From: Oceanicoccus sp. KOV_DT_Chl
Lineage (GTDB): Bacteria; Pseudomonadota; Gammaproteobacteria; Pseudomonadales; Dasaniaceae
Assembly (NCBI RefSeq): GCF_900120175.1
Contig: NZ_FQLF01000007.1
Location: 1-64,000, forward strand
Direction of reading: 5' to 3'
DNA length: 64,000 nucleotides
The notes beneath the pieces were generated by a model that was not told where the DNA came from, made no database searches, and saw only the letters and a program-made list of their open reading frames with translations. Each line of letters opens with the position of its first letter. Position 1 is the first letter of the stretch. Made by a program: the position numbers and the translations under genes. Positions 42,503 to 62,767 of the stretch are shown piece after piece.

Positions 42503-45264
42503 TTAGAAGTTATATTTTATTGTTGTACCAAAAGTTGCCGGAGCGCCATAGCTAACAATATATTTATTAAATAACGCCAGAGTAAAAGTTCCTGAGACAT
42601 ACTCTTTATCAAATATATTCTTACCCCAAACAGTCACTTCCCAAGGACCTGAAAATACATTCAGATTCGCATTCCAAATAGTACGAGATGGAATGTAGGC
42701 TTGATTTAACAAGTCAACCCACTGACGAGACTGATAATTACCATCCAAGCGAAAACTAACATCCCAATCGCCAACCATCGTATTGTAGTTTACACCCCAG
42801 TTATATTGCTGTTTAGACACCTTGGAAAGATCATTGCCACCAATGTCATCATTACCACAAAGCTCACCAGGATCTATATAGGAGTTAAAGTTACCACCAA
42901 TAGATGACCCATCCGCATTTCTATCATCCTTAAGATGTTGCTCAGTACACTCAAAATGATAATACCGTTTTGCGGCATCATACTTCACACCATCTTTATA
43001 TCTAGGATTGGTATACGCGGCACCAAAATCAATTTCCCAGCTATCATTAATAATAAACCGGCCGTCAATCTCCATACCATAGTTTTCAACATCACCAATA
43101 TTTGCTTGAGCAGTATTGGCATTTGGGCTCTGGAAACCACCATCTGTAATTGGCGCCTGACCACCAACAAGATCCGTCCAATCAATAAGATAAACCGCGG
43201 CATTCAACTGTAAAAAACCATCTAATAGCGTATTTTTACTTCCAATTTCATAGGTCCAGTTTTCTTCAGCATTAAAAGTAGATTGCCGGCGAACAGAGGT
43301 ATTATTAAAACCACCGGCTTTCAAGCCGTTAGCCGCATAAGCATAAATAAAATTATCTTCTGTGATACGCCAATCGATATTTACCTTGGGGGTAAAATAA
43401 TAGAAATTACGCTGATCCTCTGAAGGAATACAGTTAGGGTTATCATTATCACTAGGCGCACAAACCGATGAATCAATCTCAATCAAGCCAGTAACTGAGC
43501 CAAAACCTGAAGCAGTTTCACCTGCGCGAATAGCCAGATCATCGCTAAAACGCTCAACCGACTTATCTTCTTTGGTATAACGCCCTTCCACCAAAATAGT
43601 GACATCCGAAGTAATATCATATTGAATTGAAGCAAAAGCTGACGTTATTTTATCATCGTAATGCGTCCAATTTCCTTTGTTACCACTCCAAACATTAGCA
43701 AAGATGTCATAAATACCCACCTTCTCAACCTGATTTAACGGAGATAAATAGTTCAACTCATTGATGGGCACATAACAAGCCTCAGTCGGATCCTGATCCT
43801 GATCTAGCAAGCGATCCGGAGTAGTACAAATAGGCGCATAGTTGGTGCGATCATATTGCTCATCATCAACTCGTGAATAAAAACCACCAAAATTAACTTG
43901 TAAAGCTTCACTAGCCGCCCACTCAAAACGCACTTCATGGGACTCAGTAAATAACTCGATAATTGGTCGTGAACTCACGCCATTAGTTTGCATATAAGCA
44001 TCAGCTCGATCCGAACCATCATTATTCAAGTCAACAAGGTTCGAACCAAATAAAACATCCCTATCAGCTGGCCCCTGCTGAATACCATCGTGATTGATAT
44101 AGCCATAGTTATATTTTGCAGACCATACATCATTAATATCCCAGGCAAAGCCCAAGGAATAGATTTCAGTTTGAGCCTTAAAACCAAAGCCCCTTGGATC
44201 ACTCTGACCCAAAACACGCGGATCTTCAGCCGTTTGACCGGCCCCGTAACCCCAATCTAACACTGGATCGCCATTAGCATCGATGGAGCCCACCCACGCC
44301 CCCTGACCAGGATCCAGAGGAATACGCCCCCTCCACAAAGTATTACCCTTACTCAAAGAAAACGGTCCACCCTGATCATAAGAGAGTGTCGAAAGAGTCA
44401 CTTCATTAAAGTTCATATCACTAAAGGGAGTCGCCTGGAATTTTGCCACTTCGCGAACACCATTAATAATATATACCGGCTGGCTCTCCCGCTTAAGGTC
44501 AGTATTGTAATAACCCAAGTCAACTTGCATGCCATCTGATGGCAACCAGGTTAGACCGAAGTTGTAGGTTAGATCCTCACGCCCACCAAGCATCCCATCT
44601 TTACCACCATCACTGAATCCAGCAGGGTCTATTGTCGCATTGGGGTGTGCATTTTTAGTATGACCATCATATTCACTACTACCGATGGTGAATCGCCCCA
44701 GTAAAACCCCTCAGCCAATGGGCCGGTTACTGAGTACTTAAAATCTTCCCTGCCGTCCTCACCCAGTGTTGTCGAAAAATACGCCTCAAGCTCTTCTTGC
44801 GGTTTTTTAGTGACATAGTTAATCGCGCCAGCAAATGCATTTCGGCCATAAAGAGAGTTTTGCGGCCCCTTTACAACCTCGATACGCTCCATATCAACCA
44901 TGCCCATGTTCGCCATGCTTTGACGTGATAAATAAATACCATCAAGAAACACCGCGACGTTTTGAACCCGATCCTGCAAAAAACCCTGACGTAAGCCACG
45001 AATAGTTGGACTCTCCTGATAACCAGAACTAGATCCACCACTGTAGGTTAAGCCAACGGTGCCACCAGCAACATCTTCGAGATTGACAAAATCACGACGC
45101 TCCATCTGCTCCGCACTAAAAGGGGTGATTGCTAAAGGAACTTCTTGCAGTGATTCTGCCGATTTTCGGGCAGTAACGACAACCTCTTCAATTTGCGCAT
45201 AGGTTGGCATAGCTATGAATCCTGATAAAACCAAACCCATAGATAAAATTTTATTGTTAGACAT
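42503..45264 (-). CDS. TonB-dependent outer-membrane receptor (frameshifted)
   Basis: About 920 residues after repair. Start ATG 45264 gives a signal peptide ending MPTYA; upstream codons of the open frame are not needed. The TonB box region IEEVVVTARKSAESLQEVP is followed by the plug (TIRGLRQGFLQDRVQNVAVFLDG in parts, VKGPQNSLYGRNAFAGAINYV). The beta-barrel runs to a terminal aromatic (IKYNF). The frame breaks at AAAA 44703-44706 (plus strand); one more base gives EGFLLGRFTIGSSEYD. The ligand cannot be told from sequence. Neighbours are a calcium-repeat lipoprotein and an AraC-type regulator. Confidence 0.9.
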
Positions 45265-45403
45265 TAATCCACCCCAAATGGTACTAATTTTGTATTCAAT
45301 ATGAATGCACTTTATCCAGAATATAAACCAGGTATCGCGCACAAAAATTATTATTGTAAAAACCAAATGATTGGGACAGCCATTGCTAGCCGTCCCCTAA
45401 TGA

Positions 45404-53295: not shown

Positions 53296-54840
53296 CTACT
53301 GCGAAAAAGCCTGCAATAAAGGCTGAATGTGATTAGCAAAAGGCTTCCACCCCTCAACTGCACCCTTATAGATAGGAGACCTTACTTGCAAAGAGCTATT
53401 TGTTCTGACATCACGCAACGACAAATGCGGTGTCAAACAAGCACTTTCAAACTTAAGGCCACAGAAGTTTAATAGCGCCCTAACCTCCTCCTCAGTATTT
53501 TCTATTAGCGCTTCATACTCGACATCATAAATTTTATAGGGTAATACGTTATGCCAATGTTTCATCAAGTTATTATACAAGGCATAGAAAGCTGCTAATT
53601 CCTCGAGATTATTGCTATAGGGGTAATGACCTGCAAAGCTTGTTTTATAAATAGAAAAACAAGTATCTACAGGGTTACGAGCCACATGGATAAATTTTGA
53701 ATTAGGTAGAATGATTTTGATTAAACCAAGCCACATAAAATTATTCGGCATTTTGTCAACAATATATATTTCTGCTGGATTTTTGTTATACGCCCTGGAC
53801 TTATCAATATAAAGATTCCCCAAGGCCTTAATAGTCTCTGCATCAAGCTCCCGAACCCCCTCACATATAGGCTTTCCTGAGAGCTTTTCAATACCGCTTA
53901 CAACACTTCCCATTACACCCATTTCACCGCCAGAACACACATCAGAATGACACGACAATATTTGCTCTACCAACGTTGAACCTGACCGGGGTAAACCGAC
54001 AATAAAAATGGGGCCAATGCCCGCCTCCCCCGCCCCTTGTCTCTGTGAAATAAAGTCAGTAGTAAAAGTCTGCGCTATCCGCCCAAACAGCGCTTCATGC
54101 GCAGCAACACTATAATCAGGCGACATACTGCGAAGCATATTGTTAGCATCACTAAAATACGAAAAGGCTTTATCGTACTCTTTTACATCGCTAAAAACTT
54201 TGCCGAGCGCAAACCCTAACAAATAGCGATCAGGCGCTTTAAACGCATCACTGTTATACAACTGTTCCATTACCGAAACCTGCTCGCCAATTTCTTCATG
54301 ACGGCGAATATTGGCTAACAAATAATAACAAGCAGCAAATTGCGGATTTATGTCCAGGGCACGTTCTGCATATTCTTTCGCCTCTACAAACTGACCTAAC
54401 GATTGCAAATTTACCGCAATCATATAGCACGCTTGCGCACTTCCAGGGTCGATCAAATAAGCTTTCTGGAAACAACGCAGCGAATCTTCAGTAAATTGGT
54501 AGGCAAAAAACTTTTGTCCTAATGCTTCCAGTGCCTCCTTATTACCTTCTTCCAATGCTTCGACTTGCTCAAGATAAAAAAACATCTCGTCGACATTCGC
54601 TAACTCGTAGGCAATTTCTGCAACTTTTAGTCGACTATTAATATGCTTCGTATCTAGCTCAGCTGTTTTCTTCATATACACCAAAGCATTAGCCAAATCA
54701 CCCAGCATGATACAACAATGGCCCGCCTGATAATGAACCTGGGCATTCTCAGGCTTCTCGTGTAGAACTTGCTTGATCAGACGGAGAGCCTCATCGTACC
54801 GCTTCGCAGACATCATTGACCCAATCATCTGTTCTTTCAT
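53296..54840 (-). CDS. TPR protein with C-terminal sulfotransferase
   Basis: 514 residues. TPR units fill about residues 1-250. Then a sulfotransferase domain: 5'-phosphosulfate-binding loop IFIVGLPRSGSTLVEQIL and 3'-phosphate motif FIHVARNPVDTCFSIYKT. It transfers sulfate from PAPS to an unknown acceptor. GTGAGGA ribosome site before the ATG. First gene of a two-gene unit with the TPR-methyltransferase. Confidence 0.88.
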   Translation of the reverse strand: MKEQMIGSMMSAKRYDEALRLIKQVLHEKPENAQVHYQAGHCCIMLGDLANALVYMKKTAELDTKHINSRLKVAEIAYELANVDEMFFYLEQVEALEEGNKEALEALGQKFFAYQFTEDSLRCFQKAYLIDPGSAQACYMIAVNLQSLGQFVEAKEYAERALDINPQFAACYYLLANIRRHEEIGEQVSVMEQLYNSDAFKAPDRYLLGFALGKVFSDVKEYDKAFSYFSDANNMLRSMSPDYSVAAHEALFGRIAQTFTTDFISQRQGAGEAGIGPIFIVGLPRSGSTLVEQILSCHSDVCSGGEMGVMGSVVSGIEKLSGKPICEGVRELDAETIKALGNLYIDKSRAYNKNPAEIYIVDKMPNNFMWLGLIKIILPNSKFIHVARNPVDTCFSIYKTSFAGHYPYSNNLEELAAFYALYNNLMKHWHNVLPYKIYDVEYEALIENTEEEVRALLNFCGLKFESACLTPHLSLRDVRTNSSLQVRSPIYKGAVEGWKPFANHIQPLLQAFSQ

Positions 54841-55582: not shown

Positions 55583-55612
55583 AAAAAAAACGCGAGCCCA
55601 AGGCTCGCGTTT
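55583..55612 (-). terminator. Terminator of the CTERM protein gene
   Basis: CGCGAGCC pairs with GGCTCGCG around a 3-nt loop, extended by A-T pairs; on the minus strand it is followed by eight T residues. Confidence 0.9.
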
Positions 55613-55642
55613 CTCGATTAACAACCCGAAGGTCGCAATCAA

Positions 55643-56194
55643 TTAAGCACGCTTACGACCGATACCAGCCAAACCAACAAGAGCTGAACCGAACAACCAT
55701 GCAGCTGCAGGTACTGGTACTTCAGATACTGGACCACCAACAGCCTGGAAGTTGAAGGAGTATACATTTGCTACTGCGCTACCTGGCTCAGGAGAAGTAA
55801 CAGTGAAGTTAGTTGAACCTGGGCCTGCATCGTTAGTAGTTGCATAAACTTGCTCAAGCATGAAAGTAGTACATGCGCCAAACACGTCACCTGGGTTATT
55901 AGTACAGCTACGGTTAGAAACAGTCAAAGCACCAGTGATCATGCTTAATGACCAGTCTGCAGTGTAATCAAAGTTTGTTACGTTAGTAACTGAACTGATT
56001 GCAACAGAACCAGACAATACGAAAGTATCCAAGTCAAGCTGTAGTGAACCTGAATCAGGAGAGCCGCCCAAGCTACCAGGAACTGGCTGGAACTGGTTCG
56101 CTACAAATGAATCAGTCAGGATGAATGGAACGTAGTCCGCTTGAGCGGCAACAGATGCACCTACTAATGCTGTGGCTAATGCTAATTTTTTCAT
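55643..56194 (-). CDS. VPxPA-CTERM sorting-domain protein
   Basis: 183 residues. Signal peptide (MKKLALATALVGASVAAQA), a Ser/Thr/Asn-rich beta-type body, and a C-terminal sorting signal: VPVPAAAWLFGSALVG, then a short helix and a basic GRKRA tail. This is the VPxPA (PEP-CTERM-type) anchor recognised by exosortase in bacteria making exopolysaccharide; no exosortase is in the window. The ADWxxxxxxxxLxxSNxxCTxN stretch resembles the end of the 45.4 kb lipoprotein. The leader looks like a c-di-GMP-I riboswitch and the Shine-Dalgarno is in a hairpin. Confidence 0.88.
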   Translation of the reverse strand: MKKLALATALVGASVAAQADYVPFILTDSFVANQFQPVPGSLGGSPDSGSLQLDLDTFVLSGSVAISSVTNVTNFDYTADWSLSMITGALTVSNRSCTNNPGDVFGACTTFMLEQVYATTNDAGPGSTNFTVTSPEPGSAVANVYSFNFQAVGGPVSEVPVPAAAWLFGSALVGLAGIGRKRA

Positions 56195-56202
56195 AATACT
56201 AT

Positions 56203-56222
56203 CCTCGAGGGTTTACTCGAAG
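56203..56222 (-). promoter_or_regulatory. Shine-Dalgarno-sequestering hairpin
   Basis: On the minus strand CTTCGAG and CTCGAGG form a 7-bp stem with a 6-nt loop. The GAGG ribosome site, eight bases before the CTERM ATG, is inside the 3' arm. It lies directly after the riboswitch-like element and is a candidate expression platform. Confidence 0.6.
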
Positions 56223-56330
56223 GGTGACCGGCTATCTTGATCGCTTCCTTGTAAACTAACTTCCATTATTACTGGATTAAGACCCTTGGCTTTCCGTCCC
56301 CACCTCACGATGAGTTTGGCTTTTTCCGTC
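56223..56330 (-). ncRNA. Putative c-di-GMP-I (GEMM) riboswitch
   Basis: Minus-strand leader 29 nt upstream of the CTERM gene. Core features match GEMM-I: GCCAAAC; a hairpin CTCATC-GTGA-GGTGGG with a GNRA tetraloop (56299-56314); immediately GACGGAAAGCC (56288-56298), one base different from the usual GACGCAAAGCC; GGGTCT; and the distal GATAGCCGG (56223-56236 region). Outer GACGG and CCGGTC can close a short P1. The second hairpin is longer than usual. Identified by eye; a covariance-model search would settle it. Fits c-di-GMP control of a matrix/surface protein. Confidence 0.75.
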
Positions 56331-57289
56331 TTGTTTTATTGTTTAAGGTTTTATTATTAAGCGACATAACTTTCGTCGCACCGTCTTTCTAAGACATGAA
56401 TTAATAGTCAATATTGGTGCCAATAAATAATTTATTTTTAAATATCAATAGGTTACAGGCAAACCTATCAATAATCGGACTGCTAAAGAACGACATGTAA
56501 TGACTTATGTCAAAAATATCGTCGTCCATAAACATAATGACCTATCAATAGGACATAACCACTGCAAATTAGTACCCACCAAATGTTACACCCGTATCAA
56601 AAAAAGTACCGACACCCCCTCACAAGGAACATTACACTTAGGAAGCAAAATTTATTGATAACAATGCAATATACTGATTATCCAAATAATTATCAGCATA
56701 TAATATGAAATATTTTTTCACCCCTGCCTGCTAAATTTACCCTGCCTACCGGTTTAAATTACTGCCCCAAAAAATACACTAAACTATTGATTTATATAAC
56801 TTAAAAATAAAAATAACCCGCCTTATAGCGCCGAATTCAGTTCAAGTAATTACACCAGTCATTCAAAAACCGATATTAACTTCCTATGCCCAAGCGTCAA
56901 CCTGTATATATGATACTAACTCTGGACAGTAATCAGTCAATATTCCCGTAAATCATAAGCAAACCCAGCAGTGTTAAATAATCCGACACATTCGACAGGT
57001 CGGCATTAATTTTCGCACTATCTTGGCGCAAAAATTACGAGACGACAATGCGAACTACCACGGAAATCTATATGCCGCTGATTTATATAGGTTTTTTTAA
57101 ATTAGAAAGGAAATCTATTCCAGCAATAATTTACACCCTGACTACAGTAGCACCAGCTCAACGTTTACTACTCGCACCCGATCCCATAGATTTGCCATTT
57201 TCGCTCGTGTTTAGCCTCTTTCTGGTCTATACAAAAAGACACAATAAATTTTCAACACGCCCTGCCCCCCCACCATATAGGAGAAAGCA
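56331..57289. other. Long AT-rich intergenic region
   Basis: About 960 bp between divergent CTERM and ThDP-enzyme genes. No credible gene; the frame at 57048-57293 has no ribosome site or family resemblance. It holds a possible sigma-54 site or palindrome (56407-56425), and GGAGA six bases before the next ATG. Confidence 0.5.
56407..56425 (-). promoter_or_regulatory. Sigma-54-like site or palindromic operator upstream of the riboswitch
   Basis: On the minus strand TTGGCAC-CAATA-TTGAC matches the -24/-12 layout, with a full -24 and TTG at the right spacing but GA in place of the -12 GC. The same bases form the perfect palindrome TATTGG-TG-CCAATA (56412-56425), so a regulator site is an equal possibility. 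It would start transcription about 65 nt before the aptamer. Confidence 0.35.
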
Positions 57290-58926
57290 ATGAAAGCATC
57301 TGACCTTTTCGTAAAGGCTCTAGAAGCAGAAGGAGTTGAATACATCTTTGGTATTCCTGGCGAAGAAAACCTGGACATGCTTGAGTCGTTACGCCATTCA
57401 TCAATCAAGCTAATCCTGACTCGTCATGAACAAGCCGCCGGCTTTATGGCGGCAACTTATGGCCGTTTGACAGGAAAAGCCGGTGTCTGCATGTCTACAC
57501 TGGGACCAGGGCGACAAATTTCGTTACCGCTGCAGCGTATGCACAACTAGGTGCTATGCCGATGCTAATGATTACCGGACAAAAACCGGTCAAATCAAGC
57601 AAGCAAGGCCAGTTCCAAATTGTCGATGTGGTCGACATGATGGGACCACTGACCAAATTTACCCACCAGATCGTCAGTAGCGACAATATTCCCTCCAAAG
57701 TACGTGAAGCGTTTCGGCTTGCTGAAGAAGAGCGCCCTGGCGCTACACATCTGGAATTACCCGAAGACATTGCTGATGAAGACAGCAATACCGCGCTGGT
57801 TAATATCAGCACACATCGCCGCCCAATTGCCGAAGAAAAAGGTGTGCGCCACGCCGTAGAAATGATTGAAAAATCTATTCAGCCGTTAATTCTGGTTGGC
57901 GCTGGCGCCAACAGAAAATTACCAAGCAAGATGCTCACGGAATTTGTTGCTAAAACCGGCATCCCCTTTGTCACTACTCAAATGGGTAAAGGTGTTATCG
58001 ATGAAACCAGTGAACTGTTTTTAGGTAACACGACCTTGTCAGACGGTGACTTCGTCCATCGCGCGATTAATGCAGCAGATTTGATTATCAATGTGGGGCA
58101 CGATGTGGTTGAAAAACCGCCGTTCTTTATGCATGAACTCAGCAAAGTGATTCATGTGAATTTTAATTCCGCCCAAGTCGACCCCGTCTATTTCCCGCAA
58201 GTCGAAGTGTTAGGTGATATTGCTAATAGCATCTGGCAGATGAAAGAGCGCATCACCGCGCAACAGCACTGGAACTTTAATTACTTCATGGAAGTAAAAT
58301 CACATATGGATGCCCACATCCTGGAAGGCGCTGATGACGACCGCTGGCCCGTTTACCCACAACGTCTGGTGGCTGATGTTCGAGCAGCCATGCCCGATGA
58401 CGGCATCATCGCTTTGGATAATGGTGTCTATAAAATATGGTTTGCCCGTAACTATCGCGCCAAAAAACCCAATACCGTGCTACTGGATAACGCGCTGGCG
58501 ACTATGGGGGCCGGCTTGCCTTCAGCCATGGCCGCGCATCTAGTCTCTCCAAATAAAGCGGTTACCGCTATCTGTGGTGATGGCGGCTTTATGATGAATT
58601 CTCAGGAAATGGAAACTGCGGTGCGTTTAAACATGCACCTCACCATCATCATTCTGCGTGATGATGCTTACGGTATGATCAAGTGGAAACAGGCCAATAT
58701 GAACTTTGATAACTACGGTCTGGACTACGGCAACCCCGATTTTGTTAAGTATGCAGAAAGCTATGGCGCAAAAGGCTACCGCATAGAAAAAACAGAAGAT
58801 TTATTGCCATTGCTTAAGGCCTGCCAAGCTGAACATGGCGTGCATTTAATTGATGTCCCTGTTGATTATTCTGAGAATGATCGCATTCTCAATGACGAGA
58901 TCAGAGAACTTAGTAAGCGCATTTAA
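57290..58926 (+). CDS. Acetolactate synthase-like ThDP enzyme (frameshifted)
   Basis: About 546 residues after repair. The N-terminal half has the catalytic Glu in LTRHEQAAGFMAATYGRLTG; the C-terminal half the ThDP motif GDGGFMMNSQEMETAVRLN. The frame breaks at GGG 57509-57511; one more G gives LGPGATNFVTAAAYAQLGAM, the standard family sequence. No small (ACT) subunit is adjacent, so it is likely a stand-alone AlsS-like or other 2-oxoacid decarboxylase rather than biosynthetic IlvB. The aldehyde dehydrogenase 31 nt downstream suggests a joint pathway. Confidence 0.85.
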
Positions 58927-60476: not shown

Positions 60477-62767
60477 TCAGCCCTGATGCGTTTTCAACGC
60501 TGTTACATTTTCGGGTAGAACTGGATCCGTATTTCCCCTGACAACATCAGCTGAAGGCTTGGCGATGAAAAAACCTTGTGCATAATCAATACCGTAGCTT
60601 TTAAGCAAATCATAGGTTTCCTGATCACCAACATATTCTGCCACCACTTTTTTACCACAGGCCTTGGCAATGTCCACCATCGATTTAACCAGAGCGCGAT
60701 CAATTTTATCTTCCAATATCCGCTCAACAAACTCACCTTCAATTTTCACATATTCTACCGGCATATTTTTCAAATACGAAAACGAACTAAAGCCGGAACC
60801 AAAATCATCCACTGCAAACTGGAAGCCATAAGACTGCAAGCGAACCATTTTCTGCGAAGCATTATAGATATTACCCACTGCGGCCCGCTCGGTTAGTTCA
60901 AACACTACTTGAGAGGCATCTATATCATATTCATTAAATGTTCTAACGACACGATTTACAAAATCAGGGTCTACCAACAGCTGCCCCGAAAGGTTGACAT
61001 AAAACCGAACTCGGCGACCTTCATTATTCAACGCTTCCAACGCCTTCATACTGTGCCTGATTACCCAGTAGTCGATTTCGGTAGCTAATCCAAAGCGTTC
61101 GGCTACTGGAATAAATAAGTTAGGCGGTACCAATTCACCCTCTTCGCCTATCATCCGCAGCAGCGCCTCATAACTAGGGATACCGCCTTCTTCTACTCCG
61201 ACAATAGGCTGGTAATGCAGCACAAATTTATCATTAGCCAACGCTTCAGCAATACGATGTGACCAACCAATATCCAATTTATTTTCATCATTGGCTTGCG
61301 CCTCATACAAATGAAAACGATTTCGGCCTTGCGATTTGGCGTTATAACAAGCCATATCTGCGTTAGAGAAAGCCTCTTCAGCACTTTGCTTATCTGCTTC
61401 TATCAAGGCCGCACCCACTGAGCAATAAATATTAAACGTCTTACCTTGCTCGATAAACAAAAAATCATACATAGATTTAACGATAGAGTTAGCAATTTCA
61501 ATTGCGCCCGACTTATCAACTGATTTAGCCAATACCGCAAATTCATCACCACCTAATCGACAAACCACATCATCCGTCCGCATACGCTTTTTTAACAGCT
61601 CAGCAATTTGTACCAGCAAGCGATCGCCAGATGCATGACCTAACGTGTCATTAACATATTTAAATTGATCCAAATCGATAAAGAATAACGCGCTTTTATC
61701 CTTTTCTTTAACAACTCGCTGCTTCTCTTGCTCTAATAAATTATTAAAACTACGCTTATTTATTAAACCGGTTAAGGCATCGTAATCTGCCAATCGGCGT
61801 AACTCTGCATCGCGGCCTTTAATCGCATTAATCGTGGCATTTAACGCATTGCTAATTGCGACGATTTCTTCATCGCCATTTTTACTGACCCAAACATCAG
61901 TATCACCTTGAGCCAGACGATTTAATGGTTCACGTAAATCAAGTAGTGGTTTTAGCGCATTGGTAGTTAACTGACGACCAATCACAGCTGCTATACAAAA
62001 CAATATTGCGAAGAAAAAACTGCCCTTGATAATATTGTCCACCAAATGACTTTGGTGTGAACTAAAATCAAGACCCATATCAATATAGCCGATGACTTCC
62101 ACGCTCTCAGCAGCAGAGTCATCCATATCAAAATCCAGCATTTCATCCGCGCGCATTGACACAATCGAGACCGGCGCAATCATTCGCATCAACGAATGCT
62201 GCACAGTAATCACATTGCTTATAGCGCGGCCATTTTTTAGCTCGGTACGGGTAAAATCATCAAAGACACTCTTATTAAAGACAGGCACATCAAGGTCAGC
62301 TGAAGAGGATGCAATATATTCAGCCAGCACACCAACGCCATCAGCTTTATAAAACTTTAAATAGGATACTTCCGAATAATTATTAATGTAATTTTCTATT
62401 GCAGTAAATTCATTGATATCTTGTGACACATAAAGCGGAGTACTGAGTTCGTCCAGTTTATTCATCCATTGCCCAGCTTGCTGTTCAAAAGTATTTTGAA
62501 TGGCATTGCTGGAAATGATCCAGAATCCGGTTACCGCCATGATATACACCAGCACCCCCAACTTAACAACAACAATTGGAAGCGGCGCACCAAACTACCT
62601 GATTTCTTTCGTCCATGCCTACGTGTCAACAGCTCTGACTGTCGTAATCGGCTGCCAAATTGCGCCCACTTCATTTCAATACAGCCAACTAAATCCTGTA
62701 GGCTTTCTTTAACTTGAAGTCGCAATTTTTCTGACATTATTTGTAATTTCTTATACGTCACTTTCAT
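60477..62767 (-). CDS. Membrane GGDEF-EAL protein (frameshifted near the N-terminus)
   Basis: About 763 residues after repair. Short basic cytoplasmic N-terminus, TM1 (VLVYIMAVTGFWIIS), periplasmic sensor of about 150 residues, TM2 (GSFFFAILFCIAAVIG), HAMP-like linker, GGDEF domain with intact LGGDEFAVL, and EAL domain with YEALLRM, FELTE, VDDFGSG and VKIEGEF. The late AE-x-V-E motif reads AEYVGDQE (Glu to Gly). The frame breaks near 62578; one more C gives RRFPIVVVKLGVLVY. Start ATG 62767 or ATG 62737. It could make and/or degrade c-di-GMP. 25 nt after the substrate-binding lipoprotein gene. Confidence 0.88.

Follow-up and report, generated by a model that had tools for sequence, protein, structure and literature searches.

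A complete c-di-GMP-I riboswitch aptamer was found upstream of a gene encoding a 183-aa VPxPA/PEP-CTERM surface protein, in a window of 64,000 nt (the whole stretch of DNA that was analysed). Computation also identified the sorting tag of this protein, exosortases in the genome, recurrence of the riboswitch and gene pairing, promoter-like motifs upstream of the aptamer, and an overlap of two helices in the leader. We consider it likely that the leader acts as a c-di-GMP-I ON switch on a transcript made from a PrsR-activated sigma-54 promoter, and that an exosortase sorts the PEP-CTERM protein so produced. The original prediction placed a c-di-GMP-I riboswitch before a protein of the exosortase-sorted type. 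It was supported by the match of the aptamer to RF01051, by a borderline TIGR03370 tag, by the presence of XrtD among the encoded exosortases, and by recurrence of the pairing at six of seven sites.

The whole window was compared with Rfam 15 using cmscan, and c-di-GMP-I (RF01051) was the sole match above gathering score. The match (56330-56220, minus strand) covered model positions 1-87 completely, with an E-value of 2.4e-6.

56220..56330, minus strand: c-di-GMP-I riboswitch aptamer (RF01051, 48.2 bits, gathering score 35; RF03167, 53.1 bits, gathering score 59)

The GEMM-I covariance model, which had been named beforehand as the check to run on this leader, thus gave a significant match, and the predicted coordinates proved correct to within three bases. 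The predicted elements were recovered in the predicted order, namely a GNRA-capped hairpin (CUCAUC-GUGA-GGUGGG), then the junction GACGGAAAGCC, then the distal element GATAGCCGG. Matches to SNORA19 and sraA in the window were far under threshold, and the sraA match overlaps the terminator-like hairpin given below. An RNA model, R1, retained just 10 base pairs and gained little over RF01051. Searched against the whole genome at E up to 1, it returned seven matches, six of them at known PEP-linked sites, of which five had served to train it, and a weak seventh.

The open reading frame starts 25 nt past the aptamer match, and the following elements were located on it and directly behind it.

55643..56194, minus strand: VPxPA/PEP-CTERM surface protein gene, 183 aa (ORF; TIGR03370)
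55646..55720, minus strand: C-terminal sorting tag VPVPAAAWLFGSALVGLAGIGRKRA (TIGR03370; tail comparison)
55585..55615, minus strand: intrinsic terminator-like hairpin directly 3' of the gene (14-bp stem and U-run, -21.3 kcal/mol, z -5.08)

The translation has an N-terminal signal peptide (judged by eye), a Pro-x-Pro motif, a hydrophobic stretch and a basic end, the sorting tail reading VPVPA...GRKRA. The protein lies at the edge of the VPLPA-CTERM model TIGR03370, with 25.5 bits in the genome search and 21.8 bits in a whole-protein scan, for a cut-off of 25.35. Its sister proteins scored 23.3 to 26.9 and, besides TIGR03370, no NCBIfam model reached cut-off in the whole-protein scan. Since a strong hairpin and a run of U lie just behind the stop codon, the riboswitch transcript is probably monocistronic, and the unit formed by riboswitch and gene probably consists of one gene. 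A pattern scan for terminators listed none, the hairpin at 55585..55615 included.

Two exosortases are encoded in the genome. The first is XrtD (572.5 bits, cut-off 400), in surroundings of exopolysaccharide-type genes (by eye), with a PrsT-like lipoprotein nearby that scored 295.1 bits, under the cut-off of 312.2. The second matched TIGR02602 with 128.2 bits (cut-off 105.55). Its top score among four families was for exosortase A (TIGR03109, 189.3 bits); because this is under the cut-off of 208, it is named "XrtA-like" only. The 183-aa protein would be sorted by an exosortase once made. PrsK (382.1 bits, cut-off 300) and PrsR (516.0 bits, cut-off 502.6) are encoded as well, prsR being split over two frames in the assembly. 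In the window the riboswitch stands before a sorting substrate and not before the sorting enzyme, and so would link c-di-GMP to the material that is sorted. A GGDEF-EAL gene lies near the unit.

60477-62561: GGDEF-EAL protein, 4.1 kb from the PEP-CTERM unit

Folding of the leader revealed two helices that share bases at the 3' end of the aptamer.

56219..56223, minus strand: P1 3' strand CCUUC, common to P1 and the Shine-Dalgarno hairpin (folding)
56203..56222, minus strand: hairpin CUUCGAG/CUCGAGG enclosing the Shine-Dalgarno GAGG (56206-56203)

Folded within 37 nt, the hairpin of the window has a minimum free energy of -9.1 kcal/mol (z -2.39; 3 of 200 shuffles were equally good). In P1, 4 of 5 pairs form, with a C-U mismatch. 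When P1 was forced, the unpaired probability of the Shine-Dalgarno sequence rose from 0.03 to 0.50. At the six closest loci of the genus, the window among them, the Shine-Dalgarno GAGG lies inside a hairpin of 7-9 bp whose 5' arm starts within or beside the P1 3' strand CCUU(C), and its access in the free fold is 0.00-0.05. At five of these six, access rose from 0.02-0.05 to 0.24-0.53 with P1 forced (0.49 at L002, 0.50 in the window, 0.53 at L006, 0.44 at L057 and 0.24 at L059). Against dinucleotide shuffles, the platform hairpins of the six loci had z values of -1.8 to -3.7. Because the 5' arm of the Shine-Dalgarno hairpin overlaps the P1 3' strand, a translational ON switch is favoured in the window, and is the most likely mode of action of the leader. 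Without c-di-GMP, the P1 3' strand CCUUC would pair into the 7-bp hairpin and the Shine-Dalgarno sequence would be hidden. With c-di-GMP bound, P1 would close, the hairpin would be deprived of that arm, and ribosomes could start.

A genuine riboswitch could also work in the opposite direction, or keep its Shine-Dalgarno hairpin in both states, in which case c-di-GMP would lower expression or barely alter it. Some loci fit this reading: at L002, L057 and L007, P1 and the hairpin overlap by as little as one or two bases, access with P1 forced was just 0.07 at L007 (1879k), and it dropped from 0.30 to 0.02 at L053 (the G002 site), where the hairpin had a z of -2.3. Wherever the leader carries CCUUCUCGAG, the overlap amounts to one or two bases, so small that a 5-bp hairpin could persist. 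Against this stand the window, L006 and L059, where the overlap is larger and access increases, and the studied Vc1-gbpA element, whose expression goes up with c-di-GMP according to the available text of PMC4744006. An OFF switch or an unresponsive hairpin is unlikely, although the strongest competitor of the ON switch. Among the more distant loci, access with P1 forced rose at L047, which is G005 2940k (0.27 to 0.56), and hardly changed at L003, which is G000 195k (0.61 to 0.67), and at these two the platform hairpins were no better than shuffles. For the six remaining PEP-linked sites in relatives, the folds computed were free folds.

The pairing is not confined to the window. Seven c-di-GMP-I sites were found in this genome, six above cut-off and one scoring 33.1, and a PEP-CTERM gene lies downstream at six of the seven, the sub-cut-off site among them. 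At the 1244k site the gene start is about 150 nt away; the seventh site, C7:134041, precedes a gene for a 165-aa protein. The probability of at least six of seven by chance is about 1e-11, given the 45 similar proteins found and an assumed total of 4,200 genes, a value that overstates the case, the sites being partly paralogous. Across 57 genomes (this one and 56 relatives), 23 sites were detected in 12 genomes. A PEP-CTERM gene was downstream at 15 of them, spread over 7 genomes; the remaining eight comprised four before other complete genes and four before genes whose C-terminus lies beyond the stretch.

Two broader samples were inspected. In the class-wide sample, sites occurred in 67 of 369 genomes, and all 115 sites outside this genome were read. 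The first gene was PEP-like at 7 of 75 sites versus 1 of 129 background ORFs (Fisher test, p 0.004), after 40 sites with no callable complete ORF had been dropped and with the whole-locus ORFs of 30 loci included in the background. Under a stricter rule 6 of 115 were PEP-like, and three more were recognised by eye (L270, L276 and L280). An exact-pattern scan of named genomes gave at least 123 sites, with titles for 80 of 116 loci. Among the matches listed, PEP-like proteins made up 16 of 75 first genes versus 10 of 603 other ORFs (p 2e-10), and the genomes concerned included Marinobacter, Glaciecola, Methylicorpusculum, Desulfobacula, Desulfamplus and Geobacter. A looser tail rule, which selected 19 of 123 of the matches listed, was set aside on account of false matches. 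The pairing is dominant in this genus and a minority elsewhere. With six of the seven sites of this genome before such genes, the window aptamer is part of a regulon, through which c-di-GMP probably turns on several surface proteins in a direct manner.

The association might instead reflect hitchhiking, that is, a single unit copied within the genus with no functional link between riboswitch and gene. The proteins of the window, 1074k, 1879k, G005 3793k and G002 do align across most of their length. Those of 195k, 1244k, 2214k and G005 2940k, in contrast, match the window protein over the C-terminal 28-64 residues only, and the pairing is also present in Marinobacter, Glaciecola, Desulfobacula, Geobacter and others among the matches listed. 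It occurs in Methylophaga nitratireducenticrescens GP59 too, where four of seven c-di-GMP riboswitches adjoin VPLPA/PEP-CTERM genes (available text of PMC12530212). Hitchhiking is thereby rendered quite improbable. The Methylophaga case also bears on the earlier view that the pairing was not known as a standard one: it was already in print for that organism.

Vc2 numbering was assigned to these aptamers provisionally, by mapping them onto a Vc2 sequence, and we took "GGC" to denote positions 20, 47 and 92, which is our own interpretation. Positions 20 and 47 were G and A in the window and in the other 14 PEP-linked aptamers of the relatives (15 of 15); the systematic reading covered these two positions. 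The c-di-GMP contacts in Vc2 are G20, A47 and C92, as given in the available text of PMC4744006. That the aptamer is a variant class with another ligand, of the c-di-GMP-I-GGC or c-AMP-GMP type, is the least probable reading: RF03167 (GGC) outscores RF01051 (53.1 versus 48.2 bits), but stays under its own gathering score of 59, and positions 20 and 47, in this provisional numbering, are the G and A of the Vc2 contacts (PMC4744006, available text).

Several observations were made on other aptamers in the course of this work. Position 20 is apparently A, c-AMP-GMP-like, at L052 (G025:C150:19382-19456, where the reading is uncertain) and at L045 (G041:C22:760-844). A swap to C21-G46 was considered as a PEP-specific subtype, being present in 15 of 15 PEP-linked aptamers of the relatives versus G21-C46 in 7 of 8 others. 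It was ruled out, because among the matches listed many Desulfobacterota and Campylobacterota carry C21-G46, mostly before other genes, and because at L274 the aptamer before a PEP-CTERM gene is of the G21-C46 form; the swap is accordingly taken as ordinary covariation. Tandem cores of the C21-G46 type were seen among the matches listed in 3, 4 and 2 copies at L100, L104 and L107, records of Desulfobulbaceae, Desulfosudis and Desulfoluna, respectively. One genome of the class, G221, has eleven c-di-GMP-I sites, none flagged PEP-like, some first genes lying beyond the stretch. At L055 (G028:C11:466068), a c-di-GMP-I site is followed by a PEP-CTERM gene and then by a gene that looks exosortase-like by eye, an order that would bring the sorting enzyme itself close to the switch.

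Upstream of the aptamer lie promoter-like motifs. According to the available text of PMC1569441, 99 of 167 proteobacterial PEP-CTERM genes are preceded by a 17-nt motif 1 with TTTACA at its end, then a spacer of 32-92, then a sigma-54 box with GG and GC. In the window the order is CGACGATATTTTTGACA, 85 nt, TGGCACCAATATTGA, 77 nt, aptamer.

56508..56524, minus strand: motif-1-like sequence CGACGATATTTTTGACA, putative site of PrsR, a sigma-54 activator
56408..56422, minus strand: sigma-54-like promoter box TGGCACCAATATTGA, in which TTGA replaces TTGC

When the 250 nt were shuffled 500 times by mononucleotide, a box as good as TGGCACCAATATTGA arose once. Over the whole window, boxes with up to 2 mismatches are not commoner than chance (33 observed versus 45.7 expected). 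The -12 element is TTGA in the window, and TTGA or TTGT, not TTGC, at 5 of the 6 closest loci. A scan for sigma-70 promoters gave 4 promoter-like sites versus 5.3 by chance. Among the relatives, the PrsR/sigma-54 motif pair (up to 3 mismatches in total) was present at 10 of 15 PEP-linked sites versus 0 of 8 other riboswitch sites, where the motif-1 consensus had been written from 8 of the 15, window included, and the pair was present at 3 of the 7 unused sites. At the same threshold it was not found at 195k, 1244k and G004 19689.

In the named genomes, where none of the loci had entered the consensus, the pair was found among the matches listed at 6 of 17 PEP-linked loci versus 1 of 96 others (p 3e-5). 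The 17 are the 16 called PEP-like by rule plus L075, and an upstream stretch of 300 nt was available for 113 of 116 loci. Three of the six loci with the pair belong to named Marinobacter, one to Glaciecola sp. 33A, and two are further loci among the matches listed. In Marinobacter, all three boxes end 27-29 nt short of a point 10 nt upstream of GCCAAAC. The sole non-PEP locus with the pair among the matches listed, L078, has downstream an 856-aa protein that is dockerin-like by eye. At the PEP-linked Desulfobacterota loci among the matches listed, the pair is largely absent. These motifs suggest that transcription probably comes from an upstream PrsR-activated sigma-54 promoter. Such a promoter would transcribe the leader, and expression of the PEP-CTERM gene would then need PrsK/PrsR activation plus high c-di-GMP.

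The riboswitch-linked proteins also differ from other tagged proteins of the same genome. VPLPA-CTERM matches above cut-off number 27, made up of 6 riboswitch first genes, the second gene at 2214k and 20 others. No Rfam match was found at these 20 at E up to 0.1. The tail GR[KR]R ends 6 of 6 riboswitch-linked proteins versus 2 of 20 others (Fisher test, p 1.2e-4), a difference that was noticed first and tested afterwards. The PrsR/sigma-54 pair (up to 3 mismatches) precedes 4 of 6 riboswitch-linked genes versus 1 of the 20 others. The coexistence of two tail types with two exosortases points to two sorting lines, with substrates assigned by inference. We tentatively propose, as a possibility somewhat less likely than not, a sub-regulon under a two-input gate, in which PrsK/PrsR and sigma-54 would control transcription and a c-di-GMP-I riboswitch close to the transcript start would control translation. 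GR[KR]R proteins would be handled by the XrtA-like enzyme, and KRKK-type VPLPA proteins, which have no riboswitch and in nearly all cases no promoter motif, by XrtD. The composite leader is also present in Marinobacter and Glaciecola; on this reading, c-di-GMP would determine directly which of the sorted matrix proteins appear on a biofilm cell. Where a genome has two exosortases, the tail classes suggest, besides, how substrates could be assigned to each. A weak R1 match (L321 611-702, minus strand; 16.2 bits, E 0.0085) lies directly before a VPLPA-CTERM gene that has no Rfam match, and is possibly a decayed leader.

Neighbouring genes were inspected at the long loci of the genus. A TPR-sulfotransferase gene adjoins the PEP-CTERM gene in the window, and similar genes occur at other riboswitch loci.

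53296..54840, minus strand: TPR-sulfotransferase gene adjoining the PEP-CTERM gene
L295 10391-13500: TPR-sulfotransferase gene
L296 10672-12360: TPR-sulfotransferase gene
L299 9326-10879: TPR-sulfotransferase gene

This arrangement was seen at 4 of 9 long genus loci (window, G000 1879k, G005 4351k and G005 3793k). Because the genome has 15 Sulfotransfer_3 matches, no function is claimed for these neighbours. At three riboswitch loci (L301, L298 and L303; sites 195k, 2214k and G005 2940k), genes for a TonB-dependent receptor and for a large protein, either with PKD or Pfam-less, come after the PEP-CTERM gene. A TonB-dependent receptor in the window (42503-45366, minus strand) has its plug and its barrel on separate ORFs that differ in frame, and a similar split occurs at L295 13847-16425; these are either assembly indels or pseudogenes. 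An acetolactate-synthase-like gene (by eye; 57290-58926, plus strand) likewise consists of two ORFs, with a 5-base gap and a frame change.

PEP-CTERM proteins have been tied to matrix production by gene content, and few direct signals to them are described in the literature consulted. A riboswitch before the sorted proteins themselves provides a direct and testable connection between c-di-GMP, which signals attachment, and the sorted surface; the combination of promoter and riboswitch offers a simple reporter for testing it. The parts are known (riboswitch, promoter type and sorting tag), and they are combined here in a partly class-specific arrangement that was not found described. The available text of PMC10599522, a paper that mentions both PEP-CTERM and riboswitches, does not report the pairing of riboswitch and PEP-CTERM gene, and queries of the open-access literature, made with no sigma-54 term, returned no description of a composite gate of promoter plus riboswitch.

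The closest parallel is Methylophaga GP59, in which c-di-GMP riboswitches flank PEP-CTERM/VPLPA-CTERM genes as they do here. The available text of PMC12530212 gives transcript levels only, with no anatomy, expression platform or promoter, whereas the present case adds the 6 of 7 recurrence, the overlap of P1 with the Shine-Dalgarno hairpin, the PrsR/sigma-54 pair and the tail class. Vc1, upstream of gbpA in Vibrio cholerae, is likewise a c-di-GMP-I element, and it increases the production of an attachment protein that is secreted. This target, however, binds chitin, and the available text of PMC4744006 describes neither its sorting by an exosortase nor a PrsR/sigma-54 promoter. In Clostridioides difficile, c-di-GMP riboswitches decide which sorted proteins are displayed (CD2831/CD3246, SrtB and PPEP-1), but there a type II riboswitch acts on the substrates, a Gram-positive sortase does the sorting, and a type I riboswitch acts on the protease (available text of PMC7865049). 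Finally, the PrsK/PrsR/sigma-54 control of PEP-CTERM genes resembles the present unit in its single-gene operons and long upstream regions and, as far as the putative elements of the window go, in motif 1, spacer and box; no riboswitch is described in the available text of PMC1569441, whereas here an aptamer lies between a putative promoter of that type and the gene.
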